DNA from: Saccoglossus kowalevskii
Lineage: Eukaryota > Hemichordata > Enteropneusta > Harrimaniidae
NCBI RefSeq assembly: GCF_000003605.2
Contig: NW_003114469.1
Location: 188,369 to 246,072 of the forward strand
Reading direction: 5' to 3'
DNA length: 57,704 bases
A program made the translations under genes and the position numbers. Below are positions 1,470 to 49,765 of the stretch, piece by piece. Numbering within the stretch: the stretch's first letter is position 1; every line of letters begins with the position of its first letter. The notes beneath the pieces are model-generated. The model saw only the letters and a program-made list of their open reading frames with translations. It was not told the DNA's origin and searched no databases.

Positions 1470-4400
1470 ATGTCTCGCTTCGTGCTATTAACGCTAGTCT
1501 GCCTTGCATTTTTTAATAAAGGTAAGTTCGCATCAAACAATTTGAACAGATTTTTTCTCAGATTAGTATATGTATACGTGGCCCACGTACCGTCAAATGA
1601 ACAAAGATTTCTTTGCGTGCAAACAGCTGCATTTTCAATATATTTGTGAGTCGTTACAATTTGGTTCTCCTCCGCGGAAGCTAATGACTGTAATGACATG
1701 ATGTCCACATACACGAACTGCGGCGACACATGGCACTTAAGTTGACACGTACACACTATTTTCGACTGTTAACTATTTAAATTTCTAAATAGATGCATTA
1801 TCAAGTGGACTGTTTGGCGAGGGTGGCGAAGGTGGCCCGCTAGAAGGGGCTTTGGAAGATAAACCCATACTCAGGGCATTACTGATGAAACAAATTATCG
1901 GTAATGTAGGCGGTGGTACTGGTGCGCCGCTCCCCATATTGCGGGCACTGATGAATGGTCAGACTCCACCACCAATAGTACGAGCGATGATAGCTAAACG
2001 TGTTATGGAGGTGTGTAATATAATTATAGAACCCATCAATTCATATCATTTCATACCATTTCACATCAAATCATAGCATATAATAAGAGAAACTCGGTAC
2101 AAATTCTGTACAAATTCCCTAATCATGTTTTCCATATTTTGCTATGTGAAAGTTGGTCGCTAGTCCCTCCAGACTATCAATGCAATTTCACTCCGCATTA
2201 TGCGCAGTGTATCCACACGTACTCGGATGGGTCAAGGGCGCATCGATGGTCAGTTCATCGCGATATGAACATATCTAAATAACCACACTATCGTTTAACC
2301 TACGTCAGCATCACGTATTTAAATCACTTAATAATCTGAATATTTGTTCGCCTATGGTATTTTCATCACCCACAGTTTGTCTGTTGTTTGTTTCAGTTTA
2401 GATACATATTTTCCCCTTTTTGTTCGGAGATAATTTACTTATTAGTTGTTCATATGTAATATACTTTTACCGTAAAAGTGGTGTACGCGGGCTATATTAG
2501 ATTAAAGCAATGACATAAACACATATAATAAGTCATCTATTTAGACAAAATACAGAAACGATTCATTGATCAGTAGTCAGATCATAAAATCAAAAAACAC
2601 GAAAAACACATGTAGTTACTGCCAGATCCAGAATGTGGAATAATTTATTGTATGAAAATTGTTACAAGCTAATTTCTGTTTACTGTGTTCCCTTTAAGAA
2701 TACCGGCGAAGATGGACCCCTTCTCCTCAAACTGTTGGTCTTCCGTAAAGTTGCCGGTGAATTGGGAATGCAAATTATAGAAGGGCTGAGGGCGAGGAAA
2801 CAGTCTGATAGAGTATACACGTTCGCTTTAACTCCACTGTGTGACTGTGCTCTGGAATACATGTAAGCTAAGTACTGTGATATAAGCAGACGTTGCATGC
2901 ACATTTGAATCGTGTACAATCTTACTGTTCTGTGCAATCGCTCCGGTTTTATAATATCGGCGAGGGAATACGTATTTCCTATACAAGTTGTCGCGTATTT
3001 CAGGTCATGCCGTGCTAAAATTGTAATTACACCTATATGGTATATGGTAAAACCTTAATGGACTGGATAGCCGTATCCAGTTCATAAAGATTATTATCGA
3101 ATACTGATCAAAATACAGACCCCGTGAATGGTCCTTTCTTACCTTTACGTCATATAAGTTCTTAGTCACTAGAGGGCGAGCTATAAGATGCATATTATTG
3201 TGATATAATATATAATTATAATACAAATTTATCTGGAGGTCATTGGCCCCAGTATCAATATATACAAATCCCACAAAGCGATTGTAATGCAATATATGTA
3301 TAATATGTTATTCACTTTAATATTCCCACGTAGTGAGACATACCATTACATAAACTAATATTTGTCGTTCACATTCTTCTTTTTCTTATTTTCCAAAGTG
3401 ATGATGAAGGTGCAATGAAGGGGTTTTCTATAGACCTCATTAATGCAGGTAATGTTCGTAAATTTAACCATATGGATTCTGGGCTTGGTGGGTGGGGGTA
3501 TATACAATTTGCTATTACTATATGCAGTATTAAAATGTTATTGTACATTTGATATAGAACCATATCAATTGTTATACGTCTATTTTATATGGCAACAAGT
3601 TATACTGAAAACGGCTGATGACTTGTTTTATTCGAAATCTATATAACAAATACAACGTGATATGTTACTTAAATTTTCTTAGTTTGCGAGGAAGCTGGAA
3701 GGAACTGTGAAACACAATACGACCACAATTCCAACTGTTTTGCCCATGATGATAATCATTTTTTGCTCGGCGAAGGTAAGAACATTTTTTTCCAAATTTT
3801 ATTCGAATTTATTTTTTCTTTCCCATACATTATTAACAACAAGAAACGATACCGAATTTCTGTCAGCTGATGTAGAAAAAGAAGAAATCGAAACTGTTTA
3901 ATAAGTATAACTCATCGAAGTTAATTATTTCTCATATCGAATTTTAATTTAAGGTTTATATCACCAGATCATTAATTATCAAACAACGATGGCTACACAC
4001 TAGTCTGTAATGCAAAAACACGAGGAGGAAATACAAACGCAGCTCGTTTACATTTTTTTTATTATAGGCCTTATATCCAAACAATATGACGTTTGCATGT
4101 CTTGGTTTAAAACAAAGGATCGTACACACGTAGCGGCATTTACGGAGCCATATTGGAAAACTGACAACATATACAATTTGTACGTACCATCCGACAATCC
4201 TAATGAATTCGACGAAAACAATATTGCTGGAAAGAAAATCGGTAAGTTGACCATCTTGTCTTGCATTTAATCTAATACGTATGTAATGTAGTGTAATGTA
4301 ATGTAATGTAATGTAATGTAATGTAATAACGATGTCTGATCCATTATTTAACTAACACCCATTAGACTCACAATATTTATTTTCTAGGTTTCATGGATGG

Positions 4401-5341
4401 GTGGACTGGGGGTCATACATGCCTTGAAGACGTGGCAGGTGCAGATACGATGACGCAAGAATATATCATTCAAATGAAAGACTTGTTTAACAAATTAAGA
4501 AATGGAGAGGTAATGGAAGTTGAATAGTCTTAACATGTTACAGTGTTATATTAGACATTACACATTCAAAAGTTCGAACAGTTTTTAACAATCGCCTTAA
4601 TATTAATGGTGGCAAGGTCATCTTTGTCACCCTTCACAAAATATTTTTTTTTTCCATATTCTGTCAACAATTTTGAAGAAAACATATTCTGATCTGTATA
4701 AAAATATTTCAAATTTATCAAAGTATAGAAATACATGAAATTGTGCATAAACTTTACACCAACATTTTGTTAGGGTAAATGATGGCGTTGAAATTGTTTG
4801 CGTCAAGAAAACCTCTTCCTATTACATAGCTGGATGCTGCGTTCGTGCTTGATGGGTTTGCAAAGAATTATCTTAAAAATGGATTCCAGAAGATTGGAAA
4901 AGGCATCAAATGTGCAGAGCCAGGTATTACTCATGCTATTGCCAGGAAGGACAATGACGTCACTGACTGGTTCAGTGAAACGTTGAGAGAGATGAAGACG
5001 AACGGAAAGTATTATGGTCTGTGTAACAAGGCTAAACGGGATCACGGTGAGGGCGTAATCCTATACATGAAATATTTTACGGCCCTATGTGTTTTTTTAT
5101 TATCTTAGAGCAATTTTTGGCTTTTGAGCCGATTTGGATACATTTACATGAATTCTGAATAAAGTCAGGCATAAAAAAATAATCTGTTACAACATGCATC
5201 GAAATTTATTTGACATGAATTGTATTTTTATAAGTATAAATCTTCATTTCAGGTTCGAAGGGACCAATTAACTGTGTCGTCGAAGGCGAAGAGGTCATTG
5301 AATTTCCCAAGATCAAGTGTGGCGAAGGATGCTGGGTTTAA
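1470..5341 (+). CDS. Copy A: secreted solute-binding-protein-3 / glutamate-receptor-LBD-like protein, intact, 9 exons
   Basis: Exons: 1470-1521, 1793-2010, 2699-2862, 3399-3448, 3683-3775, 4068-4241, 4388-4509, 4830-5046, 5253-5341. All junctions are GT-AG and the joined frame is open for 392 residues. Residues 1-17 (MSRFVLLTLVCLAFFNK) are a signal peptide. Residues 18-127 hold repeated amphipathic helices. From about 128 the sequence follows the family 3 solute-binding / iGluR ligand-binding fold: GFSIDLINAV (153-162), DRTHVAAFTEPYW (210-222), an IAGKKIGF strand followed by GGHT (258-261), and LDAAFVLDG (292-300). R211, T261 and D299 sit where amino-acid ligands are held in that superfamily. 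No transmembrane segment follows the first lobe, so it should be soluble. The mature part has 12 cysteines (138, 140, 163, 170, 180, 202, 262, 319, 356, 371, 386, 390), suggesting disulfides. The ligand is inferred, not shown. AATAAA at 5341-5346 overlaps the stop. Confidence 0.82.
4283..4326 (+). repeat. (GTAAT)n microsatellite in intron 6 of copy A
   Basis: About eight tandem gtaat units. The same intron in the other copies has shorter runs, and a reverse-complement run (attacattac) is seen near 33770-33795. Confidence 0.85.
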
Positions 5342-6230: not shown

Positions 6231-6234
6231 GGAA

Positions 6235-9734: not shown

Positions 9735-11340
<1,606 letters not shown>

Positions 11341-11350: not shown

Positions 11351-13634
11351 AATACCGGCGAAGGTGGACCCCTTCTCCTCAAACTGCTTGTCTTCCGTAA
11401 AGTTGCTGGCGAATTGGGAATAAAAATTATAGAAGGGCTGAGGGCAAGGAAACAGTCTGATAGAATATACACGTTCACTGTAACTCCAATGTGTGACTGT
11501 GCTCTGGAATACATGTAAGCTAAATATAATTATATAAGCAAACGTTGCATTCACATTTGAATCGAGTACGCCTTAGTGTTTTGTACTTTGAAAACACCTT
11601 CCATACAAACCTCGCCCTCGTCTCTGTCAACGTGACCCCGTGAATAGACCTTTCTCAACTTTACGATATAGTAGTTCTTAGTCACTGGATGGCGAGCTAT
11701 AAGATGCATATTATTGTGATATATACATAAACGTTTACAATTTCAATACAAATTTACTAAGTCATTTAGTAATTGATATTTTACGTGCACATTTTTTTTA
11801 TATTTTCTATAGTGATGATAAAAGTGCAATGAAGGGATTTTCTGTAGACCTCATTAATGCAAGTATTGTTCATAAAATAACCCTTTGGATTCTATACCAT
11901 TATAATATAGTTAATACGTAACAGATGGTTTCGAGTGGGCTTGGTGGGACGTATTACTACTTTTAATAGTAATACTAGACTTCAATTGCAATATGTTTTT
12001 TACATGGCAAAAGATATGCGGATAATGATTGATGACCTGTGTTATTTGAAATCAATATAACATAATTAATACAACGTTGCATGTTACTTATTTCATTTAG
12101 TTTGCGAGGAAGCTGAAAGGAACTGTGAAATACTATGTGACTATGATCCCAAATGTTTTGCCCATGACAATCACCACTTTTCGCTAGGCGAAGGTCAGAA
12201 CATTTTGTCTTCTTTGCCATACATTAATTATTTGACAATGGAAAGAAACCGCATTACTACTGTAAGCTGAGCTATTACAATTCAATAAGAAATCGAAATT
12301 ATTTATTCAAATTATAAAACATAGGAGTTAATTATTTCACATATCGAGTTTGTAGTTTAATATCACCATTAGATCATTAATTACCAAACAACGATTGCTA
12401 CACACTAGTCTGCATTGCAACAACACGAGAAGGAAATGCAAATGAAGCTTTTCCACAATTGTTTTTTTTAATCATAGACTTATTTCAAAACAATATGACG
12501 TTTGTATGTCGTGGTTTAAAACAAAGGATCGTACGTACACACGTAGCGGCATTTACGGAGCCATATTGGAAAACTAACAACATATACAATTTGTACGTGC
12601 CATCCGACAATCCTAATAAATTCGACACAAACAATATTGCTGGAAAGAAAATAGGTAGGTTAGCCATTTTTAATTGATAACTTCATTATTAAACATGTCT
12701 TGCATTTAATGTTACATGTAATTATGTAATTAAATGTAATGTAATTTAATAAAGAAGTCTCATCAATCATTTGATTACAATTCATTAGACTGACAATGTA
12801 TATTTTCAAAGGTTTCGTAGATGGGACGACTGGGGGTCATACTTGCCTTGAGGATGTGGAAGGTGCAGATACGATGATGCCTGAATATGTTATTAAAATA
12901 ACTGACTTGTTTAACAAATTAGGGAGTGGAGAGGTAACGGAATACGTTTGTTGAATAGTGAACATATGTTATATTAGAATGACTACTCACTGATTCACCG
13001 ATTTCGAATATTAATCATAGTTATATATTAACCCTTTTGGTGGCAAAATCAACTTTTGTTGTCTTTCACAAAATAACCAGAATATTGTCAGAAAAAAATG
13101 AAGGCGCTCGAAAAAATTAAATGGTTGAGTCATATACGAGAATTATAAAACGTCTTCTTATTAATTATCTGGATGCTGCGTTCGTGCTTGATGGGTTTGC
13201 AAACATTTATCTTAACAATGGATTCCAGAAGATTGACGAAGGCAACAAATGTGCAGAGTCGGGTATTACTCATGGTGTTGCCAGGAAGGACAATGACGTC
13301 ACTGACTGGTTCAGTGAAACGTTGAGAGAGATGAAGACGAACGGAAAGTATTATGGCCTGTGTAACAAGGCGAAACAGGATCACGGTGAGGGCGTAATTC
13401 TTTAAATGGATACATTTATGGCATTAAGGGATTGTGTTAATTTGAGTGCATTTACGAGAATTTGAATAAAGTCACGCTTAAAAAATATCAACGTTTATTT
13501 GACATGAATTGCATTTTTTAAAACTGTAAATCTTCTTCAATTCAGGTTCGAAGGGACAAATTAACTGTGTCGTCGAAGGTGAAGAGTTCAATGAATTTGC
13601 GGAGATTAAGTGTGGTGAAGGATGCTGGGTTTAA
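11351..13634 (+). pseudogene. Copy B: 5'-truncated member of the same family
   Basis: Recognisable exons 3-9: 11351-11514, 11813-11862, 12101-12193, 12478-12654, 12812-12933, 13169-13385, 13546-13634. Exons 1 and 2 are absent: DNA matching the intergenic spacer after copy E runs directly into the exon 3 acceptor near 11340. The exon 8 acceptor AG, present in every other copy, reads AT just before 13169, so normal splicing is lost. Exon 6 has one base missing at its 5' end and a 4-bp duplication (cgta) about 50 bp later; these cancel, leaving about 17 residues read in the wrong frame before the correct frame resumes at RTHVAAFTEPYW. Exon 4 ends AA|GT instead of AG|GT. Exon 9 is intact, with AATAAA at 13702-13707. 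A reading frame from 11273 runs into exon 3 without a clear signal peptide. Probably a pseudogene; an altered transcript is possible. Confidence 0.8.
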
Positions 13635-17035: not shown

Positions 17036-17246
17036 TACAAGTGCACTGTTTGGCGATGGATGCAAAGGTGGCTTGTTAGATGGGTCTTTGGGCGATCAAT
17101 CTCTTTTCACCATTTTACTTTTAAAACAAAAGTTGGCAACTTATGGGGGTCATGCTTATCTACCACTTCCCCTACTGCGAGCACTGATTACTAGCGATAC
17201 CCCTCCACCAATAGTACAAACGATGGTAGCACGAAGTGTTATGCAG
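17036..17246 (+). pseudogene. Lone exon-2-like relic 1 (open frame)
   Basis: Translates as a divergent exon 2: SALFGDGCKGGLLDGSLGD, then LPLLRALITSDTPPPIV and ending ARSVMQ before a gtttgtg donor. The frame is open over its length, unlike the two related relics, but no exon 1 or exon 3 pairs with it before copy C starts at 19410. It contains a cysteine (GCKGG) not found in exon 2 of the full genes. An LTR-like repeat abuts it upstream and supplies the preceding tttag, and the splice phase does not match exon 1. Probably a relic of an older duplicate. Confidence 0.65.
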
Positions 17247-19409: not shown

Positions 19410-22400
19410 ATGTCTCGCTTCGTGCTACTAACGCTAGTCTGCCTTGCATTATTTAATAAAGGTAAGTAAAGTACACATCAAATCATTTCAACAGATTTCT
19501 TCTCAGACGATTATATGTATACGTGACTCACGTGGCCCATGTTTGCGTGCAAACAATCACATTTTCAATATATTTATGGGTCGTTGCAATTTGGCTTTCC
19601 TCTACAGAAGCTAATGAGTGTAATGATCATATTGGCAACATACACGACACTTAAGTCGACACGTGCACACTATTTTTAGACTTTTTATATTCCTCTATAG
19701 ATGCATTGTCAAGTGGACTGTTTGGCGAGAGTGGCGAAGGTGGCCCGCTAGGCGGAACGTTGGAAGATAAGCCCATACTCAGGGCATTATTGATGAAACA
19801 AATTATCGGTAATGTAGGCGGTGGTACTGGTGCGCCACTCCCCATATTGAGAGCACTGATGACTAGCCAGACCCCACCACAAATAGTACGAGCGATGATA
19901 GCTAAACGTGTTATGGAGGTGTGTAATATAATTATCCAATAAATTCATTCTATATCATATCATATCATTTCACATTAACTCATAGCATATAATAAAATAA
20001 TTCCCTAATCATTGTCATGCATACAGATACCAACAATCTTGACTTTGTTGCCTCAACCCATCCATCAGTCAGTAAGGCCATAATGTATTATTTAGTTGAT
20101 TAATATTGAAAGAATAACTGTAATTATACAAAAAAAGAACAAAATAGATTAAATATAAATTTAGGATTTTCTGCCTAATAGTGAAACATTAGACTATTAG
20201 ATGCAAAACGTACAAGAAAATCGCAGAAGGAATGATTTCAAATTTGATTTAATCTGTCCTCTATCTAGAAAGTCATCAGAATGTGCAATATGGTTGCCTT
20301 AAATTACACATTTATATATAACACACAAAGATATCCATAATGTCTGAGTAATACATCGCAAGTCTTCCAATAATTAACGTAATGTAATTCGGTAATGTAG
20401 CACTAAGTGCTTTATATATTCAAGGTGACACGATAACAATTATCCGTAACATAAGAACTTTACAAGATATATATCCAGCTTGCTATTAAGGCTTGAAAGT
20501 TTCATGTCATTCGTTGAAACAATATAATATCGAAATTTAACAGAAATAATTCTCATAATTAAACTCAACAAATTCGACAACAAAAATCTTACAATGGGTT
20601 TCCTGCATTGAGACCCTTTGTAACGAACCCCAGGTGCACAGCAATTGAGTTGTATGTACACAACAAGATATCCTTGACGTGGCGCCCCTAAATACCTACT
20701 ATAGCTAGTCTGTCTTTTTGTACAGTTCTTGCCACATTAGTTCCATTTACTAAAACTAACCCAGGCTTATACTAGAGATATAACCACTTCTCTAGCGCCC
20801 TATACAATAAGCAAAACGTGGCTCGTCACAATAGCCCAGCAAGAGGTTGCCTAAGAAACAACTTTCCATAAAATCAAAAACCCCAAAAGACTCACTAAAC
20901 CAGTTCCAGAACGTGGAATATTATCTTGTATGAAAAGCTAATTTGTGCTCACTGTGTTCCTTTTAAGAATACCGACGAGAGTGAACCTCTTCTCCCCAAA
21001 CTGTTGGTCTTCCGTAAGGTTGCCGTCGACTTGGGAAAGAACATTATAGAAAGGTTGAGGACAAGGAAACAGTCTGATAGAATATACACGTTCGCTATGC
21101 TATCTCCACTATGTGACTGTGCTAATGAATACATGTAAGCTAAATACTGTGATATAAGATATTTTATAATATCGGTGAGAGAATACCTAATTCCTATAAG
21201 AGGCGCACCTTCCATCGATAACGCGTCTTTATGATTGGAGGTAAAAGCGTTCAAAGCGAAAGTTAGATTGGCTGTGTTGTCGGTCTTCAGTTCGTACACC
21301 GTAAAAACTATAAAATCATTCTTTATCACATAATTCATTTTGCCCGGCCTCGTAACGCTATGGAAAGTGCGCCCTCATATCAGAAAAAATTATTTCGCGT
21401 ATCACGTCCGGCTTTCATCAATCAAACAAAACGGATTAAACACGCATCACTATTGTGATATAATATATAATTATAATATAAACTTATCTGGAGGTCATTG
21501 GTCCCAGTATCGATATATACATATCCCACAAGGCGATTGTAATGCAATATATATATAATATGTTATTCACTGTAACATCCCCACTTAGTGAGACATACCA
21601 TTACATAAACTAATATTTGCAGTTCACTGTCTTCTATTTTTTATTTTCTAAAGTGATGATGAAGGTGAAATGAAGGGATTTTCCTTGGATCTCATTAATG
21701 CAGGTAAGGTTTATAAAGTTAATCATATGAAATCTAGATCACTGTTAGCTCGAGTGGGCTTAATGTGTGCGGGTATATAAGGTTTGCTATTACTACATGC
21801 AGTAGTAAAATGTTATAATATTGTACATTTGATATAGAACCATATCAATTGCAATATGTTTATGTTATACTGATGATTTGAAATCTATATAACAAATACA
21901 ACGTGGTATGTTACTTATATTTTCTTAGTTTGCGAGGAAGCTGGAAGAAACTGTGAAATTCAATACGACCTTGATATCAACTGTTTTGCCCATGATGGTC
22001 GTCACTTTTTGCTCGGCGAAGGTAAAAACATTTCATTTCCCAAATTTCATCATATTTATATCCCAAACAATAACATCCAACCGCATTTTTACGGTCAGCT
22101 GATGTAAACAAATTAAAATTGAAATTGTTTATTAAGTATAACCCATCGGATTTATTTATTTCACAGATCGAAATTAAAATAGTTTTATACCACCATTAGA
22201 ACAGTTATTATTAAACAATGATGGCTACACACTAGTATGTATGGCAATAACACGAGGAGGGAAATGTAAACGCAGCTTGTTTACAATTGTTTTTTTTCAT
22301 AGGTCTTATATCAAAACAGTATGACGCGTGCATGTCGTGGTATAAAACAAAGGATCGTACACATGTAGCGGCATTCTCAGAGCCATATTGGAAAATTAAC

Positions 22401-23528
22401 AACATATACCATTTATATGTGCCATCCGACAATCCTAACGATTTCGATCCAAACAATATTGCTGGAAAGAAAATAGGTAGGTTGGCCATCTTAAATTTAT
22501 TATTTCATTATTAAACGTGCATTCAATCTTGCACACCTGTAATGTAGCTTGTAATGTAATGTAATAACAATGTCTAATCAATATTTTATACCCATTAGAC
22601 TCACAATATTTATTTTCTAGGTTTCAAGAATGGATGGACTGGGGGTCATACTTGTCTTGAAGATGTGGGAGGTGCAGATACGATGACGCATGAATATGTC
22701 ATTCAAATGAAAGACTTGTTTAACAAATTAGGAAAAGGAGAGGTAATGGAAGTTGTTTATTGAGCAGCCTTAACATGTTACAGTGTTATATTAGACACTA
22801 CGCTTTCAAATAATCACCCTTAACACAATAAAGCGTTTTTATTTGTTCCCCCATATTCTACCAAAGATTTTGATATGCTGCCAAAGAAAAAATATTTATA
22901 CAAATATTTCAAATTCAGCAAAGTATAGAATATACTTAAAATTGTGCATAAACTTTACACCAACATTTTGTTAGAAAAATGATGGCGTTTAAAACATGTG
23001 TGTCGTATATGAGAAGTGCAAAACCTTTTTCTATTAAATAGCTCGATGCTGTGTTCGTGCTTGATGGGTTTGCAAAGTATTATCTTAAAAATGGATTCCA
23101 GAAGATTGGCGAAGGCATCAAGTGTGCAGAGCCAGGTATTTTTCATGCTGTTGCCAGGAAGGACAATGACGTCACTGACTGGTTCAGTGAAACGTTGAGA
23201 GAGATGAAGACGAACGGAAAGTATTATGCTCTGTGTAACAAGGCTAAACAGGATCACGGTGAGGGCGTAATTCTGTACATTGAAACATTTATGGCACTAA
23301 AGAACTGAGCTAATTTGAGTGCATTTACGTGAATTAAGTCGTACATAAAAGAAAAACCGAATCTTTAACAATATTCACAAAGTTTATTTGACATATATTT
23401 GAATTATATTTTTAAAAGTATACATCTTCTCCATTTCAGGTTCAAAGGGTCCTATTAACTGTGTCGTCGAAGGTGAAGAGGTCAATGAATTTGCCAAGAT
23501 TAAGTGTGGTGATGGATGCTGGGTTTAA
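19410..23528 (+). CDS. Copy C: secreted SBP3/iGluR-LBD-like protein, intact, 9 exons
   Basis: Exons: 19410-19461, 19701-19918, 20968-21134, 21654-21703, 21929-22021, 22303-22476, 22621-22742, 23042-23258, 23440-23528. The joined frame is open for 393 residues, one longer than copy A because exon 3 has an extra codon just before the CDC pair (MLSPLCDC). The signal peptide is MSRFVLLTLVCLALFNK. The Arg in DRTHVAAFSEPYW, the GGHT turn and the LDAVFVLDG aspartate are kept, as are all mature cysteines. Exon 3 is the most divergent of the family (KVAVDLGKNIIERLRTRK). Intron 3 carries a small inverted-repeat insert at 21200-21376. The AATAAAGCAC block that follows the B, D and F stops is mutated here; the next AATAAA I find is near 23757. 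Fully coding by inspection; function inferred as for copy A. Confidence 0.82.
21200..21376. mobile_element. Small inverted-repeat (MITE-like) insert in intron 3 of copy C
   Basis: Left end gaggcgcaccttccatcg; right end ...ctatggaaagtgcgccctc, whose reverse complement starts gagggcgcactttccat. Imperfect terminal repeats of about 17 bp bound 177 bp that is absent from intron 3 of the other copies. Non-coding. Confidence 0.5.
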
Positions 23529-27802: not shown

Positions 27803-30800
27803 ATGTCTCGCCTCGTGCTACTAACGGTAGTCTGCCTTGCAATTTTTAATAAAGGTAAGTAAAGTTCGCATCACACCATTTCAACGGATTTCTTCTCAGA
27901 TTATCATATGTATACGTGGCCCACGTACCGTTAAATGAACAACGTTTCCTTGCATGCAAACAGCTACATGTTCAGTACATTTATGAGTTGTTACAAGTTA
28001 CTATTTATATATCTCCATAGATGCATTGTCAAGTGGACTCTTTGGCGAGGGTGGCGAAGCTGGGTCGTTGAGTGGGGCTTTGGAAGATAAATCCATACTC
28101 AGAGCATTTTTGATGAAACAAATTGTCGGTAATGTAGGCGGTGGTAGTACTGGCGCGCCACTTCCCCTATTGCGAGCACTGATGACTGGCCAGACCCCAC
28201 CACCAATAGTACGAGCGATGATAGCTAAACGTGTTATGGAGGTGTGTAATATATTTATCTCATCAATTAATATCATATCATACAATTTCACAGCATAGCA
28301 TAGCATAGCATATAAGAAACAAATTCCCTAATAATGTTTTCCATATTGTTCTGTGTAAAAGGAGGTCACTGGTCCCTCCAGATTATCAGTGCAATTGCAC
28401 TCCGTTACAGTAATCACTGACTGATTATTGTACTATGAGCAGTGTGTATACACATATTCTGATGGGTAAAGGGTGTTTCGATTATCAGTTAATCGCAATA
28501 TAAACATGTCTAAATAACCATACTATCATCTAAGCCCACAGGCGCCATGTATTTAAATCACTCAAGCATCAGTATATGTTCGCATATTCTAAACACTTTA
28601 CCCATAGTTTGTCCGATGATTTTTAGCTTTTTTACTATACATTCTCCGGAGCTAATTTACTCATTAGTGGTTCATATGTGATATACTTTTTTCTGTAGAG
28701 TGGTCTACGTAGGCTATATTAGATCACAACAATGACATAAACACATGTAATAAGTCGCCTATGTAGACAAAATACAGAAACGATTCATTGATCATTTAGT
28801 TCATAAAATCAAAAACATAAAAGTCTCACTACACCAGTTCTTGTACAAAAAGCTAATTTGTGTTCAATATGTTCTTTTCAAGAACACCGACGAGAGTGGT
28901 TCCTTTCTCCCCAAACTGTTGGTCTTCCGAAAAGTTGCCGGCGAATTTGGAATGAAAATTATAGAAGGGCTGAGGGCGAGGAAACAGTCTGATAGAGTAT
29001 ACACGTTTGTTATATCTCCACTATGTGACTGCGCTCTAGAATACATGTGAGCTAAGTACATCGTAATAAGCAAACGTTGCATTCACCTTTGAATCGAGTG
29101 CAACCTCAGTGTTCTGTACGTTGAAAACATCTTTCATATAATTATCGCTCTCAAGCGAGAAGCGTCTCTGCCCGTGACATCAACATGACCCTGTGAATGG
29201 ACATTTTTCTCTCTGGGTCATAAAAGTTCCAAGTCACTTGGCAAGCTATAAGATATAAATAATATATAATATTATATTATTGTGATATGTACATATACGT
29301 TTTCATTTATAATACAAATTTATCTGGAAGTCAGTGGCCCTAGTGTCGATATATACAAATCCCGCAATACTGTATAATATGGTATTCACTGTAATATTCT
29401 CTTTTAGTATAATGCATACTATTACAAAACATTACGTTCACTATCTTTTTTTTTCATTTTTCCATAGTGATGATAAAGGTGAAATGAAGGGATTTTCTGT
29501 TGACCTCATCAATGCAGGTATTGTTTTTAAAGTTAACCATATGAATTCTAGCCCAATGTAATGTAGTTAAATACGTAACGGATAGGTTCGAGTAGGCTTG
29601 GTGGGTGGGGATGTATTACTACTTGTAATGGTAAAATAGTACAGGACATCAATCGCATTTATTTATTTTACATGGCAACAATTTATACGGATAACGATTG
29701 ATTGTGTTATTTGAAATCAATATAACAAAAATTAATACAATGTGGTATGTTACTTAAATTTTCTTAGTCTGTGAGGAAGCTAGAAGGAACTGCGAAATAC
29801 TATATGACTATGATCCCAAATGTTTTTCTCATGATGGTCACCACTTTTTGCTAGGCGAAGGTGAGAACATATTTGTCATTAAATTTTATACGATTTTTTT
29901 GTCACATGCAATAGTTATTTGACAATGAAAAACAACAACATTTCTTCTGTAAGCAAATCGAAATTGTTTACTTAAATTATAAAACATCGCGGGTAATTGT
30001 TTCTCATATCGAAATTTGAATTTATAGTTCAATACACCATTAGAACATTATTACCAAACGATTGCTACACACTAATCCGTATTGCAACAACACTAGGAGA
30101 AAAATGCTAATAAAGTCCGTTTTCAATTGTTTTTCAATCATAGGCCTTATTTCAAAACAATATGACGTTTGCATGTCGTGGTTTAAAACAAAAGATCGTA
30201 CACACGTTGCGGCATTTACGGAGCCATATTGGAAAACAAAGAACGAATTTCATTTGTTCGTGCCAACGGACAATCCAAACGATTTCGACCCAACCAATAT
30301 TGCTGGCAAGAAAATCGGTAAGTTGGCCATAATTCAATTATTAAAAATGCTAAACGTAAGTAAAGTATGTAATGTGATGTGATGTAATTTCATGTAATAT
30401 ATGTTTTCAAAGGTTTCTTGGAAGGGAGGACTGGGGGTCATACTTGCCTTGAAGACCTGAGAGGTGCTGATACAATGACGCCTGAATATGTTCTTTCAAA
30501 AACTGACTTTCTTAACAAATTAGGAAATGGAGAGGTAAAGAAATTCGTTTATTGAATAATATAATTTCTCATAGTATTCTATTAACCCTTTTCGTAGCAA
30601 GGTCAAGTTTTGTCATCTTTCACAAAATAAATTCGTCTAATTGTTTCCATATTTTGTTAGCAATGTTGATCGAGATTTGTTGGCAATAACAAAATTTTCC
30701 CATATATTCCAAATTTATCAATGTATAGAGAAATACAGAAACATTTACACATATTTCACACCTAAATGTTGGCGTTCAAATAGATTGAATGTTTTCATAT

Positions 30801-31310
30801 ACGAGAAGTGTAAAACTTCTTCCTATTAAATAGCTAGATGCTGCGTTTGTTATTGATGGGTTTGAGCATTATCTTACAAATGGATTCCAGAAGATTGGCG
30901 AACGCATCAAATGTGCAGAGTCAGGTATTACTCATGCTGTTGCCAGGAAGGACAATGACGTCACTGACTGGTTCAGTGAAACGTTGAGAAAGATGAAGAC
31001 GAACGGAAAGTATTATGGTCTGTGCAACAAGGCTAAACGGGATCACGGTGAGATCGTAATTCATTTATTGCACTAAAAAATGAACTAATTTGAGTACATT
31101 TACGTGAATTCTGAATAAAGTCATATGTAAAAGAAAACCCGATTTTTAACAATACAACTGTATACATCAAAGTTTATTTGACATTAATTTTTTTAAAAAC
31201 TATAAATCTTCTTTAATCCAGGTTCGAAGGGACCAATTAACTGTGTCGTCGAAGGTGAACAGGTCGATGAATTTGCCAAGATCAAGTGTGGCGAGGGATG
31301 CTGGGTTTAA
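27803..31310 (+). CDS. Copy D: secreted SBP3/iGluR-LBD-like protein, intact, 9 exons
   Basis: Exons: 27803-27854, 28021-28241, 28883-29046, 29468-29517, 29768-29860, 30144-30317, 30413-30534, 30834-31047, 31222-31310. The frame is open for 392 residues. The signal peptide is MSRLVLLTVVCLAIFNK. Exon 2 has one extra codon (GGGSTGAP instead of GGGTGAP), and exon 8 lacks one codon after the ligand-site aspartate (IDGFEHYL instead of LDGFAKNYL). Ligand-site positions are kept: the Arg of DRTHVAAFTEPYW, GGHT in exon 7 and the Asp of LDAAFVIDG. The exon 6 tail is of the FHLFVPTDNPNDFDPTN type shared with copy F. AATAAA lies at 31387-31392, about 77 bp past the stop. Splice sites are canonical throughout. 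Probably an active copy. Confidence 0.83.
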
Positions 31311-34754: not shown

Positions 34755-34941
34755 ATGCATTGACTAGCGGACTGTTTGGCGAGGGCAGCAAAGGTGGCTT
34801 GTTATATGGGTCTTTTGGGGATCAATTTCTTTTCACCGTCTTACCTTTAAAACAAATGTTAGTAACTTAGGGCGTAATGCTGTTCTACCACTCCCCCTGC
34901 CGCGAGCACTACGAGCGATGGTAGCACGAAGTGTTATGCAG
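34755..34941 (+). pseudogene. Lone exon-2-like relic 2 (decayed)
   Basis: Begins like exon 2 (ALTSGLFGEGSKGGLLYGS) but has no AG acceptor (tatatatgcattg), reaches a stop at LVT*, and has lost about 30 bp before the conserved RAMVARSVMQ end and gtttgtg donor. It and its flanks match relics 1 and 3, and it sits about 17.7 kb after relic 1. Confidence 0.7.
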
Positions 34942-36566: not shown

Positions 36567-36900
36567 TCCGGGAAGGATTCTACAAATTGACGGCATTCAA
36601 CTCAATCCTACAAATTGACGGCATTTAGGGTCAATTCTACAAACTGGCGACATTCAAGTCAATTGCTAAAAAATGTCGACATTCAAGTTCAAATTGTCAA
36701 TTTTCAAGAAAATGCTACAACTTGATGACCTTAAAATTAATCCTACAATTTGGCGACACTCAAGTAAATCCTACAAATTGACGAGCTTGATGTTAATCTT
36801 GCGAATTCGAGTCAATACTACAAACTGACGACATTCAAGTCAATCCTAAAAATTTACAAGATTCAAGAAAATCATACAAATTTACGACTTTGACATTAAT
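36567..36900 (-). repeat. 28-bp minisatellite, block 2 (upstream of copy E)
   Basis: About a dozen degenerate units of the cctacaaattgacgacattcaagtcaat type, ending in the same tttacgactttgacattaatcctcttact sequence as block 1. Confidence 0.8.
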
Positions 36901-37201
36901 CCTCTTACTTTGGCCTAATTTGCGATAACCATTCAAATTAGTTGACGTATGTATCTCGTATGTGTTTTAATCACATCATTAATCTAGCTGAGGCGGAATG
37001 AGCATTCTGATAACATAGATAAAACGACAGACTTTGAAACCGACCTCAATTAACACAAAGTAAAGCCCCCTTACTGGCGTATATTTCTTGCCTTGCGTGG
37101 CACACGTACCGTTAAATGAACAACGTGTATTTGCATGCAAACTGCTACATGTTCAGTATATTTATGAGTTGTTACAATTTACTATTTATATTACTCCATA
37201 G

Positions 37202-40200
37202 ATGCATTTTCAAGTGGACTTTTTGGCGAGGGTGGCGAAGCTGGGCCGTTGAGCGGGGCTTTGGAAGATAACCCCATATTCAGAGCATTATTGATGAAAC
37301 AAATTATCGGTAATGTAGGCGGTGGTAGTACTATTGTGTCACTCCCTCTATTGCGAGCACTGACGACTGGCCAGACCCCACCACCAATAGTACGAGCGAT
37401 GATAGCTAAACGTGTTATGGAGGTGTGTAACACATTTATCCCATCAATTCATATCATACCATTTCACATCATAGCATAGCATATAATATAAGAAACAAAT
37501 TCCCTAATTATGTTTTCCATATTGTTCTGTGTGAAAGGAGATCACCGGTCCCTCCAGATAATCAGTGCAATTGCACTTCGTAACGGTAATCACTAACTGA
37601 GTATTGTACTATGCGCAGTGTGTCTACACGTAGTGGGACGGGTCAAGGGTGTACAGATGGGCAGTTGACCGCGATATACACATGTCCAAATAACCATACT
37701 ATCATCTAAACCCACATGCGCCACATGTTTAAATCACTCAAGCATCTGTATATGTTCGCATATTGTATTCACTTCACCCATAGTTTTTCCGCTGATTTTT
37801 ATTTTATTACGATACATATTTTTCCTATGAGATAATTTACTCAATAGTGGTTCATATGTGATATACTATTTCTGTAGAGTGGTGTACTTAGGCTATATTA
37901 GATAACTGCAATGACATAAACACATATAATAAGTCACCTATTTAGACAAAATACAGAAACGATTCATTGATCATTGGTTCATAAAATCAAAAACACGAAA
38001 AAGACATTACTACCAAATCCAGAATGTGGAACAATTTCTTGTATGAAAATTGTTACAAGCTAATTTGTGTTCACTATGTTCCCTTTAAGAATACCGGCGA
38101 GAGTGAACCCCTTCTCCTCAAACTGTTGGTCTTCCGTAAAGTTGCTGGCGAATTGGGAATGAAAATTATAGAAGGCCTGAGGGCGAGAAAACAGTCTGAT
38201 AGAGTATACACGTTCGCTGTATCTTCACTGTGTGACTGTGCACTGGAATACATGTAAGCTAAGTACTGTGAAAGCAGACGTTGCATTCACCTTTGAATCG
38301 AGTACAACCTCAGTGTGCTGTATTTTGAAAACATCTTCCATATAAATCTTACCCTCAATCGAGGAAGTGTCTCTGCCTGTGACGTCAACATGAACCTATA
38401 AATGGACTTTTTTTCTGCTTAGGTCATAGAAGTTCATCGTCACTAGAGGGCGAGCTATAAGATGCATATTATTGTGATATATACATATACATATACGTTT
38501 TCAATTATAATACAAATTTATCTAGAAGCCAGTGGTCCTAGTGTCGATATATACAAATCCAACAAGACAATTGTAATGCTATAGCTGTATAATATGTCAT
38601 TCACGGTAATATTCCCCATTTAGTAAAAGACATACTATTACACAATCTTATTTTTTTAGTGATAATAAAGGTGCAATGAAGGGATTTTCTGTAGACCTCA
38701 TTAATGCAGGTATTGTTTTTGAAGTTAACCATATGAATTCTGTAATATAGTTAATACGTAACAGATGGGTTCGAGTGGGCTTTTTGGGTGGAATGAATTA
38801 CTTCTCGTAATAGTGAAATGTTATTGGAAATCAATTGGAATATGTTTTTTTTACATGACAAGTTATATGAAATTAATAAAAGATAATTAATACAACGTTG
38901 CTTGTTACTTATTTATTTTAGTCTGCGAGGAAGCTGGAAGGAACTGTGAAATACTATATGACTATGATCCAAAATGTTTTGCCCATGATGGTCACCACTT
39001 TTTACTCGGCAAAGGTTAGAACATTTTGTCCTCCAAAGTTTATTAGATTTTCTTTTTTTCACATGCATTAATTAATTGACAGGAGGTGGAAACCGCATTC
39101 CTACTGTAAGCAAATCGAAATCGTTTACTCAAATTATAAAACATCGGAGTCAATTTTATTCCACATATCGAATTTTGAACTTTTAGTTTTATCACCATTA
39201 CAACATTTATTTCCAAACGATTGCTACACACCAATCTGTATTTAACAACACATAGGGGGGGGATGCTAATGAAGCTCGTTTTCAATTGTTTTTTTAAAAT
39301 AATAGGCCTTATTTCAAAACAATATGACGTTTGCATGTCCTGGTTTGAAACAAAGGATCGTACACACGTAGCGGCATTTACTGAGCCATATTGGAAAACT
39401 GACAACATATACGATTTCGACCCAACCAATATTGCCGGAAAGAAAATCGGTAAGTTGGCCATCTTTAATTCATAATTTAATTATTAAACGCGTCTAAACG
39501 TATATAAAATGTGTATTGTATTGTAATGTAATTTAATAAAGCAGTATCTTCAATCATTTGATTATGACCATATATGTTTTCAAAGGTTTCATGAATGCAA
39601 GGACTGGGGGGTCATACTTGCCTTGAAGACCTGAGAGGTGCAGATACGATGACGCCTGAATATGTTATTCAAAAAACTGACTTGTTTAACAAATTAGGAA
39701 GTGGAGAAGTAACAGAATATGTTTATTGAATTGTCTTAACATGTTACAGTGTTATATTAGAATGACTACTCACTGATTCAAAGGGTTGAACCGATTTCGA
39801 CAATCATCATCGTATTATATTAACCCTTTTGGTGGCAAAGTCAACTTTTGTTTTTCACAAAAATAAATCTTTCTATTTTTTTCCCAAATTATGTTAACAA
39901 TTTTGATCAAGATTTGTTGGCAATAATAAAATATTCCCATCTATTCCAATCTTTTCTAAGTATAGAGAAACTATGCTTCCGCACTTAAATTTAAATTGGT
40001 CCGACAAGCCTTTTACATTATTAGGTGTAGATTTAATTCTGTATGAGAATATTAATTTTGATGATAAAACCTTTCAAGTTAAGTCACTCCTGTCCAACTG
40101 GGCTTGGAGACCTTTGACATTATGTGGCAAGGTGACAGTAGTGAAGACATCAGCATCATATGCCAGAAAAACTGACAAAGTCTATTAGGGACGCTTTTTA

Positions 40201-41636
40201 TGAATTCATTTGGAATAAGAAACAAGACAAAATTAAAAGACTTTGTGTTGTGAATACCACAATGGCGGTTTGAGCCTAACCCATTTACCATCATTTATCG
40301 AATCGATTCATGTTTCCTGGGTAGATAAGCTGTTATCTAGCCAATATGATGAAAGGCGCTGGAAACGGCTATTTCAAGCTTATATTTGTATGGATTGCTC
40401 ATGTTTTGAAGTTTTCAGTCAGAAACCAGCCGCCGACTTTTTGTTACCATGCTTTTCTTAGTTGGTCTAAAATAATTACATGTACAATCCCCTTACTCAA
40501 AGCAATGAATTTGGTTTAACCCAGATATCTTAATTAATAAGCGAACTATATTCTATAGAGATTGGCACCAGAGTGATATCGTATTTCTTTCCGATGTACT
40601 GGATGATAGTGGCAATTTCCTCACCTTTAAACATTTCTCGGACAAATATAACATATCATCAAATCATTTTTTAAAATAGTTTGGTCTTATTGATGCTATT
40701 CCTGGAAATTGGTTAGTTTCCTTGAATAGCAGAGATAATGAAAATGAATATCCCTGATCCATATTAAAAGAGCTTACTCAGAAATCGTGGAGAGATAATT
40801 TGTTTAAATTACCTTTTACTGCTGATGAAAAAATATACTTTCATTTGTAGATACAAGAATGTAAAACCATCTTTTGTAAATTTATGTAATTATTTAGCAT
40901 ACCAAAAGAAAATAGATATGTACAAAATAAGGATATACAATGTGAAATCAAACTCTTTCAGATTATATTGGAGTTTATTAGATCAGTTACTGTGAACATA
41001 TATTGTGTATAGAGAAATACAAAAAATATGTACACCCAAATATTGTCAGGAAAAATGATGGCGCTGAAAAAGATTGAATGTTTGTATCATATACGGGAGG
41101 TGTAAAACCTCTTCATATTAAATAGCTGGATGCCGCGTTTGTGATTGATGGGTTTGGAAAGAATTATCTTGAAAATGGATTCCAGAAGATTGGCGAAGGC
41201 ATCAGATGTGCAGAGCCAGGCATTACTCATGCTATTGTCAGGAAGGACAATGACGTCACTGACTGGTTCAGTGAAACGTTGAGAAAGATGAAGACGAACG
41301 GAAAGTATTATGGTCTGTGCAACAAGGCAAAACAGGATCACGGTGAGGGTGTTATCCTATACATTAAATATTTTACGGTCCTATGTTTTTTTTATTATCT
41401 TAGAGCGATTTTTGGTTTTGAGCCGATTTGGGTACATTTACATGAATTCTGAATGAAGTCAGGTATAAAAAAATGAATATGTTACAACATACATCAAAGT
41501 TTATTTGACATGAATTGTATTTTTATAAGTATAAATCTTCATTTCAGGTTCGAAGGGACAAATGAACTGTGTCGTCGAAGGTGAAGAGGTCAATGAATTT
41601 CCCAAGATCAAGTGTGGCGAGGGATGCTGGGTTTAA
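37202..41636 (+). pseudogene. Copy E: broken member of the family (no exon 1, frameshift, LINE in intron 7)
   Basis: Exons 2-9 are found: 37202-37422, 38090-38253, 38660-38709, 38922-39014, 39306-39449, 39586-39708, 41126-41342, 41548-41636. Exon 1 is missing: the conserved upstream block ending ...ttgccttg joins intron 1 sequence (cgtggcacacgtacc) at about 37095, a deletion of about 130 bp relative to copy D. Exon 6 lacks 10 codons in frame (the HLFVPTDNPN part of copies D and F). Exon 7 has one extra G in its G run (actgggggg), which shifts the frame and gives an early stop. A LINE fragment lies in intron 7 with an 11-bp target duplication. Exon 2 is copy-D-like, whereas exon 8 and the 3' flank are copy-A-like. 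Clearly non-coding for the full protein. Confidence 0.85.
39971..41006 (+). mobile_element. 5'-truncated LINE fragment in intron 7 of copy E
   Basis: Flanked by an 11-bp target duplication, gtatagagaaa, at 39960-39970 and 41007-41017. Translation shows the C-terminal part of a LINE ORF2: FTLLGVDLILYENINFDDK, SLLSNWAWRPLTLCGKVTVV, then after a frameshift FYEFIWNKKQDKIKR and SWVDKLL. This matches the region after the reverse transcriptase core in L1/Tx1-type elements. Frameshifts and stops show it is dead. Confidence 0.8.
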
Positions 41637-44790: not shown

Positions 44791-44878
44791 TTAGATAGTA
44801 CGACAGACTTTGGAACAAATCTCTGTTATTATACAATAAAACCTCTTGCTGGCGTGCCTTGAAAATCGTACATAAAAC

Positions 44879-47800
44879 ATGTCTCGCCTCTTACTACTAA
44901 CGGTAGTCTGCCTTGCAATTTTTAATAAAGGTAAGTAAAGTTCGCATCAAACCATTTCAGCGGATTTCTTCTCAGATGATCGTATGTATGCGTGGCGTTT
45001 CTTTGCGTGCAAACAGCTACATTTTCAATATATTTGTGAGTTTACAATCGTTTACGATAGAACATGAGTGCAATGACCAGCATGGCCACATACGCGAACT
45101 GCGGCGACACATGACACTTAAGTTGACACGTACACACTATTTCCGACTGTTAACTTTTTATATTTCTCTAAAGATGCATTGTCAAGTGGACTGTTTGGCG
45201 AAAGTGGCGAAGGTGGCCCGCTAGGCGGGGCTTTGGAAGATAAGCCCATACTCAGGGCATTACTGATGAAACAAATTGTGGGTAATGTAGGCGGTGGTAC
45301 TGGTGCACCGCTCCCCATATTGCGGGCACTGATGACTAGCCAGACCCCACCACCAATAGTACGAGCGATGATAGCTAAACGTGTTATGGAGGTATGTAAT
45401 ATAATTATCCAATCAACTCATTCTATATCATAACATTTCACATCAAATCATAGTATATAATNNNNNNNNNNNNNNNNNNNNNNNNNNNNNNNNNNNNNNN
45501 NNNNNNNNNNNACGAGCGATGATAGCTAAACGTGTTATGGAGGTATGTAATATAATTATCCAATCAACTCATTCTATATCATAACATTTCACATCAAATC
45601 ATAGTATATAATACAAATTCTCTAATCATGTTTTTCCATATTTGTTTTTGCGTGAAAGGAGGTCACTGGCCCCTCCAGATAATCAGTGCAATTGCACGTT
45701 GTTACAGTTATCACTGAGTATCGTATGCACAGTGTTGTCTATACGTATTCTGATGGGTCAAGGGCGTATCGATGGTCAGTTCATCGCGATATGAACATGT
45801 CTACATAACCACTATATCATTTGACCTACATCAGCGTCATGTATTTAACTCACTTAATCATTTTATATGTTCGCTCATGGTATTTCCTTCACCCACAGTT
45901 TGTCTGTTGATTTTTAGTTAATTACGATACATATTTAGTACGTAGATAATTTACTCAATAGTGGTTCATATGTGATATACTATTTCTGTAGAGTGGCCTA
46001 CCTAGGCTATATTAGATCACTGCAATGACATAAACACATATAATAAGACACCTATTTAGACAAAATAGAGAAACGATTCATTGATCATTGGTTCATAAAA
46101 TCAAAAACACGAAAAATACATGTAGTTACTGCCAGATCCAGAATGTGGAATAATTTCTTGCATGAAAATTGTTAGAGACTAATTTCTGTTTACTATGTTC
46201 CCTTTAAGAATACCGGCGAAGATGGACCCCTTCTCCTCAAACTGTTGATCTTCCGTAAAGTTGCCGGTGAATTGGGAATGCAAATTATAGAAGGGCTGAG
46301 GGCGAGGAAACAGTCCGATAGAGTATACACGTTCGCTGTATCTTCACTTTGTGACTGTGCTCTGGAATACATGTAAGCTAAGTACATTGATATAAGCATT
46401 CTGTACTTTGAATCTTCCATATAAACTTCGCCTTCAAGCGAGGAAGCGTCTCTGCCCGTGACGTCAACATGACTCCGTGAATGGATATTTTGCTCCTCGG
46501 GTCATAGAAGATTCTAGTCACTAGAGGGCAAGCTATAAGATATAAATATTATAAAATATACGATATTATATTATTGTGATATATACATATACGTTTTCAA
46601 TTATAATACAAATTTATCTGGAAGTTAGTGGTCCTAGTATCGATATATACAAATCCCACAATGTAATTGTAATGCTATTGTTGTATAATATGGTATTCAC
46701 AGTAATGTTCTTATTTAGTATACTAAGACATACTATTACACAATCTTATTTTTTTATTTTCGATAGTGATGATAAAGGTGAAATGAAGGGATTTTCTGTA
46801 GACCTCATTAATGCAGGTATTGTTTTTAAAGTTAACCATATGAATTCTGTAATATAGTTAATACGTAACAAATGGGTGGGCTTGGTGGGTGGGATGAATT
46901 ATTTCTTGTAATAGTAACATTTTACTGGACATCAATTGCAATATGTGTTTTACATGGCAACAAGTTATACGAATAACGATTGATGATTTGTGTTATTTGA
47001 AATTAATATAAAATAATTAATACAACGTTGCTTGTTACTTATTTATTTTAGTCTGCGAGGAAGCTGGAAGGAACTGTGAAATACTATATGACTATGATCC
47101 CAATTGTTTCGCCCATGATGGTCACCATTTTTTACTTGGCGAAGGTCAGAACATTTTGTCCTCCAAAGTTTATTAGATTTTCTTTCTTTCACATGCATTA
47201 ATTATTTAACAATAGGTGGAAACCGCATTCCTACTGTAAGCAAATCGAAATTGTTTACTAAAATTATAAAACATCGGAGTCAATTTTATTCCACATATCG
47301 AATTTTGAACTTTTAGTGTAATCACAATTACGACATTTATTTCCAAACGATTGCTACACACTAGTCTGTATTTAACAACACAAAGGGGGAAGTGCTAATG
47401 CAGCCCGTTTTCAATTTTGTTTTAAATAATAGGCCTTATATCAAAACAATATGACGTTTGCATGTCCTGGTTTAAAACAAAGGATCGTACACACGTAGCG
47501 GCATATACTGAGCCATATTGGAAAACTGACAACATATACCATTTGTTCGTACCAACGGACAATCCAAATGATTTTGACCCAACCAATATTGCCGGAAAGA
47601 AAGTCGGTAAGTTGAATCTTTAATTCATAATTTAATTTATGAAACATGTCTAAATGTATATAAAATGTGTATTGTAGTGTGATGTTTTATTTACGAGTAT
47701 GTAAAACAAAATTACATTAACGAATGAAACTGATAACTTTCCCAATGAAATCCTTATCACCCCGTTGGCAGGCCAGTCACACTGGTTCTCACTACAAGAG

Positions 47801-49765
47801 GTTACGATCCCCCCTGCCAAATGCTAAGAACAACTGAAACTAATATATACATATTTACATGAAAATTGTCCACCTATGCGGATCTGTTTGTGCAGGAGTT
47901 TTACGACCGTATGCCCTTACTGACGTCAACCAAACTTGTTATGTGGGAAGTTGGCACCCAAGGCTCACGGGTGCTACACCTTGCCCAAGGGTGACTGGAA
48001 ACAGTTGTGGCAAAGGGTAACCTCATTCTCCCACGTCCATAGACTCCACAACCGGGTGTAGTTTGAAATCTTGCCCAGGACACATATATACATATTTAAA
48101 TAAACGTAAACGTTGCCTTTAATAAATAATACCTCACACGTGAGGCTGAGTTGGTGCAAGGCTTTTATGACGTATGCCCTTACTGACGTCAACGAAACTT
48201 ATTATGTGGGAAGTTGGCACGCAAGGCTGACAGGTACTACACCTTGCCCAAGGGTGACCTGGAGGTAATTGTGGCAAAGGGTAAACTCATTCTCCCAAGT
48301 ACAAAAACTCCACAACCGGATGCAATTCTAACGTCGTACCCAGGACATGTCCAATAAAGCTGAAAACCGACACGACTAAGTCGTGAGGTCAAACCTGTAT
48401 TAATTCGGGGAACGCTGAAAAGCACCGCGTTCACCCGCGCGTTTAGTGTGCCCAAGGTTGACATGGAGGTAGTTGTGGCACAGGGTAACCTCACCCTCCC
48501 AAATTCCAAGGAAAAACTAAAACATTAAAAGCACAGAACAAGTAGCAGGAAAGAAAAACGCGCGTATGTTTGCAGATAACCCACCAAGAGGACGAAACTC
48601 TTGGCTCCTGTGCGTGTTCTAAACTTGGTTGTGCATTTCTGTACGTATTGTATTGTAATGTAATGTAATTTAATAAAGAAGTATAATCAATCATTTGATT
48701 AAAATACATTAGACTGACAATATATGTTTTCTAAGGTTTCATGGATGGGAGGACTGGCGGTCACACTTGCCTTGAAGACGTGACAGGTGGAATTACGATG
48801 ACGCATGAATATGTCATTCATATGGAAGACCTGTTTAACAAATTAGGAAAAGGAGAGGTAATGGAAGTTGTTTATTAAGCAGTCTTAACATGTTACAGTG
48901 TTATATTATACACTACACTTTCAAAATATCACCCTTAACACAATAGAGCGTTTTTATTTTTTTCCATATTCTACCAACAATTTTAATATGTTGCCAAAGA
49001 AAAAATATGAATACAAATATTTCAAATTCAGCAAAGTATAGAATATAATCCTTATATTATTCTCTTTTGGTGGCAACGTCAACTTTTGTCATCTTTCACA
49101 AAATAAATCCTTCTAATTGTTTCCATATTCTGTTAACAATGTTGATCAAGATTTGTAGGCAATAACAAATATTCCCATCGATTCCAAATTTATTAAAGTA
49201 TAGAGAAATACAAAAAAATTTACACAAATTTTACACCTAAATGTTTTCATATACGAGAAGTGTAAAACCTCTTCCCAACAAATAGCTGGATGCTGCGTTT
49301 ATTATTGATGAGTTTGGAAAGAATTATCTTGAAAATGGGTTCCAGAAGATTGGCGAAGGCATCAAATGTGCAGAGTCAGGTATTACCCATGCTGTTGCCA
49401 GGAAGGACAATGACGTCACCGACTGGTTCAGTGAAACGTTAAAAAAGATGAAGACGAACGGAAAGTATTATGGCCTGTGTAACAAGGCAAAACGGGATCA
49501 CGGTGAGGGCGTAATTCAGTTATTGCACTAAAGATTTGAACTAATTTGAGTAAATTTAAGTGAATTCTGAATAAAGTCACGTGTAAAAGAAAACCCGATA
49601 TTTTAACAATATAATTGTTTACATCAAAGTGTATTTTACATGAATTTTCAAAAACCATAAATCTTCTTCAATTCAGGTTCGAAGGGACCAATTAACTGTG
49701 TCGTCGAAGGTGAAGAGGTCAATGAATTTGTCAAGATTAAGTGTGGTGAAGGATGCTGGGTTTGA
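44879..49765 (+). CDS. Copy F: secreted SBP3/iGluR-LBD-like protein, intact, 9 exons
   Basis: Exons: 44879-44930, 45174-45391, 46209-46372, 46767-46816, 47052-47144, 47433-47606, 48736-48857, 49286-49502, 49677-49765. The frame is open for 392 residues, ending in TGA where the other copies use TAA. The signal peptide is MSRLLLLTVVCLAIFNK. The Arg of DRTHVAAYTEPYW and GGHT are kept; the exon 8 motif is LDAAFIIDEF, so the glycine after the ligand-site Asp is Glu. Intron 2 contains the 50-N gap with a duplicated exon 2 end, and intron 6 holds a roughly 970-bp insert. The gene is a mosaic: exon 1 resembles D, exons 2-3 resemble A, exon 7 and its following intron resemble C, and exons 8-9 with the 3' flank resemble D and B. 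AATAAA is at 49843-49848. Probably active. Confidence 0.8.
45462..45511. other. Assembly gap (50 N) flanked by an identical direct repeat
   Basis: The 101 bp before the Ns (45361-45461), which include the end of exon 2, are identical to 45512-45612 after them. This is best read as two overlapping contigs joined without merging. Confidence 0.9.
47677..48644. mobile_element. Repeat-bearing insert in intron 6 of copy F
   Basis: This intron is about 1 kb longer than in other copies. The extra DNA is bounded by gtattgta at 47669-47676 and 48645-48652, a possible 8-bp target duplication. Inside, three spaced copies of a block containing ccttgcccaagggtgac and gtggcaaagggtaacctcat occur near 47977, 48240 and 48450. 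No terminal inverted repeat or transposase was seen. Confidence 0.5.

Follow-up and report, generated by a model that had tools for sequence, protein, structure and literature searches.

We analyzed a 57,704-nucleotide stretch of the Saccoglossus kowalevskii genome (here called the window), part of contig C812 in a 572-Mb assembly, which carries a tandem array of six copies, A to F, of one gene. With a little better than even confidence, we favor the view that the family encodes secreted, soluble, bacterial-type two-lobed proteins that capture ligands, in which the cleft has been rebuilt and an N-terminal domain added. Free-standing family-3 solute-binding proteins are chiefly bacterial, and in animals the fold is known mainly within glutamate receptors. 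The initial annotation of the window described secreted, pore-less, glutamate-receptor-like proteins that bind amino acids. That interpretation was partly supported and proved half right: the family is pore-less and probably secreted, it resembles bacterial-type proteins more than receptors, and it probably does not consist of plain amino-acid binders. If our reading is correct, these genes would add a new class to the extracellular binding proteins of animals and offer a definite starting point for identifying ligands. Their significance would lie in a combination of features: many intron-rich genes under selection in an animal, with an arginine and a set of cysteines kept and the cleft remodeled.

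Structure of the array and of its intact genes

Gene models were built by exon-wise tblastn and splice-site inspection. Spliced models were obtained for four intact copies.

1470..5341, + strand: gene A, 392 amino acids; exons 1470-1521, 1793-2010, 2699-2862, 3399-3448, 3683-3775, 4068-4241, 4388-4509, 4830-5046, 5253-5341
19410..23528, + strand: gene C, 393 amino acids; exons 19410-19461, 19701-19918, 20968-21134, 21654-21703, 21929-22021, 22303-22476, 22621-22742, 23042-23258, 23440-23528
27803..31310, + strand: gene D, 392 amino acids; exons 27803-27854, 28021-28241, 28883-29046, 29468-29517, 29768-29860, 30144-30317, 30413-30534, 30834-31047, 31222-31310
44879..49765, + strand: gene F, 392 amino acids; exons 44879-44930, 45174-45391, 46209-46372, 46767-46816, 47052-47144, 47433-47606, 48736-48857, 49286-49502, 49677-49765

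In each copy, nine exons join into a single open frame of 392 to 393 amino acids; all 32 introns have GT-AG boundaries, and the intron phases are 1-0-2-1-1-1-0-1. The copy C model, including its phases, was recovered independently by a spliced aligner with a score of 1762 (background for three shuffles of another genome stretch was 19 to 23, with a profile scaled differently from that of the copy C run). Copies B and E are broken, so that the four intact and two broken nine-exon genes initially described are all accounted for. Because spliced alignment found no further family sequence above threshold in the ~10 kb flanking the window on each side, the array looks complete.

The ratio of nonsynonymous to synonymous divergence (Ka/Ks) was 0.22 to 0.35 in all six pairs of A, C, D, and F, with Ks values of 0.19 to 0.34, indicating purifying selection on the intact copies. 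Ka was lower than Ks in every pair both for the N-terminal part and for the binding domain.

One intron of copy F contains an assembly gap of 50 Ns (45462-45511), and the same 101 bases occur, exactly, on both sides of it (45361-45612). Since identical bases flank the gap, copy F crosses an assembly join, and its local structure may be artificial.

The binding domain is continuous and has no pore. The motif order noted initially (GFxxDLINAV, DRTxxAAFTEPYW, KKxGF..GGHT, LDAAFxxDG) is present with small variations, namely, AAYTEPYW in F, LDAVF in C, and IIDEF in F. In an alignment to bacterial proteins, the chain passes from the first lobe to the second within exon 6. The intron between exons 6 and 7 measures 146 nucleotides in A, 144 in C, 95 in D, and 1129 in F; at 95 to 146 nucleotides, those of A, C, and D are too short to hold pore helices there. 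No hydrophobic stretch was found after residue 25 in A, C, D, or F, where the highest 19-residue mean hydropathy was 0.93 to 1.22. Together with the Pfam match described below, these data uphold the description of a pore-less, two-lobed family-3 domain.

A signal peptide is probable, as first proposed, judging from the hydrophobic N terminus. By hydropathy and inspection, the N-terminal peak reached a 19-residue mean of 1.51 to 1.67 in the four window copies and 1.82 to 2.22 in four of the five paralogues whose models extend to exon 1; the fifth, on C687, has a doubtful first exon and gave 1.17.

Relationship to bacterial binding proteins and to glutamate receptors

Copy A matched the Pfam family SBP_bac_3 (PF00497) over residues 142 to 357, spanning both lobes, with an expect value (E) of 5.8e-15 and 55.7 bits (curated cut-off, 26.4); copy F matched it with an E of 1.5e-14 and 54.3 bits. 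The scan covered A, F, and 8 paralogues, and all 10 proteins exceeded the curated cut-off, the weakest paralogue at 28.8 bits. The receptor family Lig_chan-Glu_bd (PF10613) matched copy A with an E of 0.065 and 13.8 bits, under its cut-off of 30, and was not listed for copy F at an E of 10. Two of the eight paralogues gave sub-cut-off matches to it (12.0 and 12.9 bits; E, 0.12 to 0.23), and the other six were not listed at an E of 1.

The PDB was searched as well. With copy A as a phmmer query, bacterial amino-acid binding proteins led (6svf; E, 1.8e-11), and the sole receptor was delta-2, at an E of 1.5. A profile of 11 diverged members matched 4zv1 (E, 2e-14) and HisJ (1hpb; E, 1e-13); the best 60 of 92 PDB rows carry the names of bacterial-type solute-binding domains, of related proteins from bacteria, or of reconstructed ancestors, and no glutamate receptor was among them. 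The label "glutamate-receptor-like" is not supported. Applied directly, the family profile scored 16 to 60 bits on nine of nine bacterial proteins and at most 5.4 bits on eight of eight receptor open reading frames of the genome, although these frames are partial (66 to 368 amino acids), which disfavors them and makes the PDB search the fairer comparison. The eight receptor loci, drawn from 11 genome matches and read by eye, are S1 segments, three of which continue into hydrophobic pore segments. On the strength of these loci and of the profile scores, the genome appears to hold ordinary receptors and, apart from them, the putatively secreted family.

The family shares with the bacterial family-3 proteins (PF00497; HisJ, ArgT/LAO, ArtJ, and GlnH) two continuous lobes, the motif order, the carboxylate-binding arginine, and a profile match over both lobes, and it is likewise probably secreted. 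It differs from them in its nine exons, its additional N-terminal domain (~110 amino acids), 10 to 11 further residues ahead of the lobe-1 GL...D.C block, and seven cysteines that, like the cleft arginine, occur without exception in the 11 diverged members; its cleft lacks Asp at the HisJ-161 column and contains Trp or Tyr and Cys. Every intact window copy has 12 Cys after residue 11. To our knowledge, an ATP-binding cassette transporter partner is not expected in an animal; no search for one was made. With the ligand-binding domain of ionotropic glutamate receptors (PF10613), the family has in common the motif order and the superfamily; unlike that domain, it has no pore or membrane helices and no insertion between the lobes.

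The N-terminal domain (residues ~18 to 126, exons 2 and 3) of A and F matched no Pfam family at an E of 10, and that of one paralogue gave a chance-level match to PRAP (E, 0.3). Three P-[IL]-[ILV]-R-A-[LM] repeats occur in copy A, at 42, 65, and 78; by eye, similar repeat stretches open the proteins on C3981, C2441, C1875, and C805. This domain may serve as a pro-region or, through helices, in oligomerization.

The binding cleft and possible functions

To examine the cleft, an alignment was made of 11 members (copy A plus 10 paralogues) and 8 bacterial proteins (5 E. coli proteins and 3 of 4 plasmid proteins, with a Rhizobium row omitted), and residues were compared at the HisJ contact positions, at ~27% identity between family and bacterial rows. 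In HisJ, we take R77 to bind the carboxylate and D161 the ammonium group of the ligand, with S70, Y14, and T120 as further cleft contacts. The R77 column holds Arg in 11 of 11 members and in all 8 bacterial rows. The D161 column holds Asp in 5 of 8 bacterial rows and in none of the 11 members (L, M, L, F, L, L, Q, N, A, N, and F); D299 of the window copies sits one column past it. At the S70 column, eight members have Trp and three have Tyr; at the T120 column, Trp occurs in nine, Val in one, and Asp in one. Ten members have a residue at the Y14 column; it is Cys in six and aromatic in none.

The loss of D161 and the replacement of the Ser, Thr, and Tyr columns by Trp, Tyr, and Cys argue against a standard alpha-amino acid, and the ligand is probably of another kind. 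The initial claim of amino-acid binding is therefore doubtful, although the aligned carboxylate Arg is present. Three plasmid proteins, picked from the best-matching records, carry N, N, and A at the D161 column, which may mean that the Asp was lost before the animal family arose or that a nonstandard ligand is common to both. The tandem copies differ from each other in the cleft: position 256, in the T120 column, is Trp in A and C and Arg in D and F.

We propose that each intact gene would yield a secreted, soluble Venus-flytrap protein, HisJ/ArtJ-like by sequence, with a fold predicted from homology and an animal-specific cysteine framework. Its lobes would most likely close outside the cell on a small carboxylate-bearing molecule held by the invariant R211, and the captured molecule could then be stored, carried, or removed in body fluid, mucus, or another secretion. 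Ligands may differ among tandem copies, given the change at position 256.

Three points weigh against this proposal. The N-terminal hydrophobic peak of the window copies is modest, and secretion is read from inspection and hydropathy. The lack of an aligned ammonium-binding Asp in all 11 members, with the polar cleft residues replaced, would also fit a protein that binds nothing. Finally, at ~27% identity a shift of one residue could place D299 at the canonical site.

The leading alternative, which we regard as unlikely, is that the fold was kept and ligand binding lost, leaving a protein with a structural or matrix role in mucus, an egg coat, or some other secretion, in which disulfide-braced lobes and N-terminal domains assemble into a material. 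Replacement of the canonical amino-acid contacts in most members, the wealth of conserved cysteines, and the repeats in the N-terminal domain of copy A would suit such a role, but the carboxylate arginine is invariant, the motifs flanking the cleft are well kept, and the sequence is not of low complexity.

We give a distinctly smaller chance to an innate-immune recognition family that captures bacterial wall peptides or metabolites and is tandem-expanded as immune genes often are. It would account for the cleft variation at position 256 and for a birth-and-death pattern of broken copies and relics, and the family profile matches a PDB chain named by its depositors murein transglycosylase MltF (E, 5.9e-7); however, selection is purifying overall, and nutrient binders can expand likewise.

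Descent from animal ionotropic glutamate receptors, by loss of the pore and secretion of the ligand-binding domains, appears very improbable. The superfamily is the same, receptors occur in the genome, and weak matches to PF10613 exist, but the profile strongly favors bacterial proteins, a genome search with the diverged member on C46 returned no receptor at an E of 0.01, and the few exon edges of family and receptor genes that we compared by eye do not coincide. We accordingly rejected a receptor origin as first choice on the Pfam, PDB, and direct profile scores and on the C46 search. Least probable of all is that these proteins are enzymes derived from a binding protein, as cyclohexadienyl dehydratase was: the profile matches that enzyme (E, 3.4e-6) and its reconstructed ancestors (E, 6.8e-10 and 8.3e-10) and the cleft has gained aromatic residues, but the top binding proteins outscore the dehydratase, with E values down to 2e-14.

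The family in the genome, its origin, and its remnants

Copy A, used as a query against the genome, produced 101 exon matches at an E of ≤1. Outside the window, spliced alignment yielded 14 gene models, several of them partial, in agreement with the initial view of an expanded family: five on C3981, four on C1168 (two pairs), and one each on C687, C2441, C46, C885, and C1875, the last running to the contig end. With the six of the window, ~20 genes were modeled on 8 contigs. This number includes broken and incomplete genes, since two C3981 models need a frameshift and most nonwindow models lack exon 1 or 2. The search with the C46 member gave 31 matches, all on contigs already known. A candidate on C4441 (E, 0.07) was dropped after scoring 80 in an implausible model with the window profile and giving nothing above 75 with a broader one, and two C3981 fragments containing stops (near 163.8 kb and 443.8 kb) were treated as relics and left uncounted.

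The binding-domain phases 2-1-1-1-0-1 were recovered whole in 7 of the 14 nonwindow models in at least one of two runs; three partial models are consistent with it over the part that they cover, three differ at the last intron, and the C46 model differs at an inner one. Phases shared among members whose identities go down to about 31% point to one intron-bearing ancestor.

Bacterial contamination was rejected on the basis of the nine exons of each intact gene, the intron phases common to several contigs, and the receptor genes in the assembly. A recent bacterial donor was likewise set aside: a scan for a close prokaryotic relative (one genome per species, 84,980 species) gave 36 pattern-matching stretches, none of which was confirmed; it used an alignment of the window copies and two short peptide patterns and is insensitive to distant relatives. 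Among plasmid records, 215 matched, the 20 listed having 26 to 28% identity. In a small tree, 14 family rows stood apart from 9 bacterial rows (support, 100/100) on a long stem (2.35), the bacterial rows being few and hand-picked. We infer an origin from a bacterial-type protein, by either old transfer or old retention. Going further, we suggest tentatively, at somewhat less than an even chance, that an animal lineage domesticated such a solute-binding protein, by ancient transfer or retention, into ~20 genes for secreted ligand-capture proteins whose cleft was rebuilt and which gained an N-terminal domain, a Venus-flytrap counterpart of lipocalins or odorant-binding proteins.

Acquisition by a eukaryote has a precedent: SBP_bac_3 genes are reported to be horizontally acquired in the anaerobic gut fungi Neocallimastix and Anaeromyces (PMC11291939). 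There, too, a eukaryote carries a gene of this bacterial domain, but the fungal cases are reported as independent acquisitions by individual species from prokaryotic groups that are named, whereas the animal family is intron-rich, diverged, and multigene, with no close prokaryotic relative found in the scans made. Shrimp transcripts have been assigned to family-3 binding proteins, by annotation only (PMC5070816); other literature matches to the topic concern marine and Vibrio bacteria (PMC11366302 and PMC6011983). We met no description of the family in the openly licensed PMC literature, a search that does not show the family to be undescribed.

The remaining family sequences of the window are broken copies and relics resembling exon 2.

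11351..13634, + strand: gene B, broken (tblastn); exons 3 to 9 only, with a frameshifting insertion of 4 nucleotides in exon 6
37201..41636, + strand: gene E, broken; exon 1 absent, an in-frame loss of 30 nucleotides in exon 6, and an insertion of 1 nucleotide in exon 7
17037..17246, + strand: exon-2-like relic, frame still open, 49% identity to exon 2 of A
34757..34941, + strand: exon-2-like relic, broken frame
51854..52041, + strand: exon-2-like relic, broken frame

Exons 1 and 2 of copy B were not found by exon-wise tblastn and splice-site inspection at the locus, and no companion exons of a gene were found for the relic at 17037..17246. The relics lie ~17 kb apart, the first two (17037 and 34757) inside a longer repeated block, and beside the third, near 51310, a degenerate exon-1-like ATG stretch was seen by eye. 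They seem to be vestiges of a second paralogue type, since lost, that was interspersed among the genes of the array.

On C805 (C805:233000-242900, stretch positions 3880-4654), a signal-peptide exon is followed by an N-terminal-domain exon; this pair was not counted as a gene. No clear binding-domain exons were found up to ~13 kb downstream (best score, 34, versus 19 to 23 for shuffles), and the pair is possibly an N-terminal domain on its own or a decayed gene.

Imperfect ~28-base repeats (GACATTCAAGTCAATCCTACAAATT-like) occur in the window at 19014-19169, 36673-36903, and 52972-53445, the last block on the opposite strand. In the mitochondrial contig (C4830; 17,037 bases), whose gene order seems deuterostome-like and possibly that of a hemichordate, TGA encodes Trp, AAA is used 43 times in the eight genes counted, tRNA-Lys(ttt) is present, and COX1 and the majority of the remaining genes lie on opposite strands.

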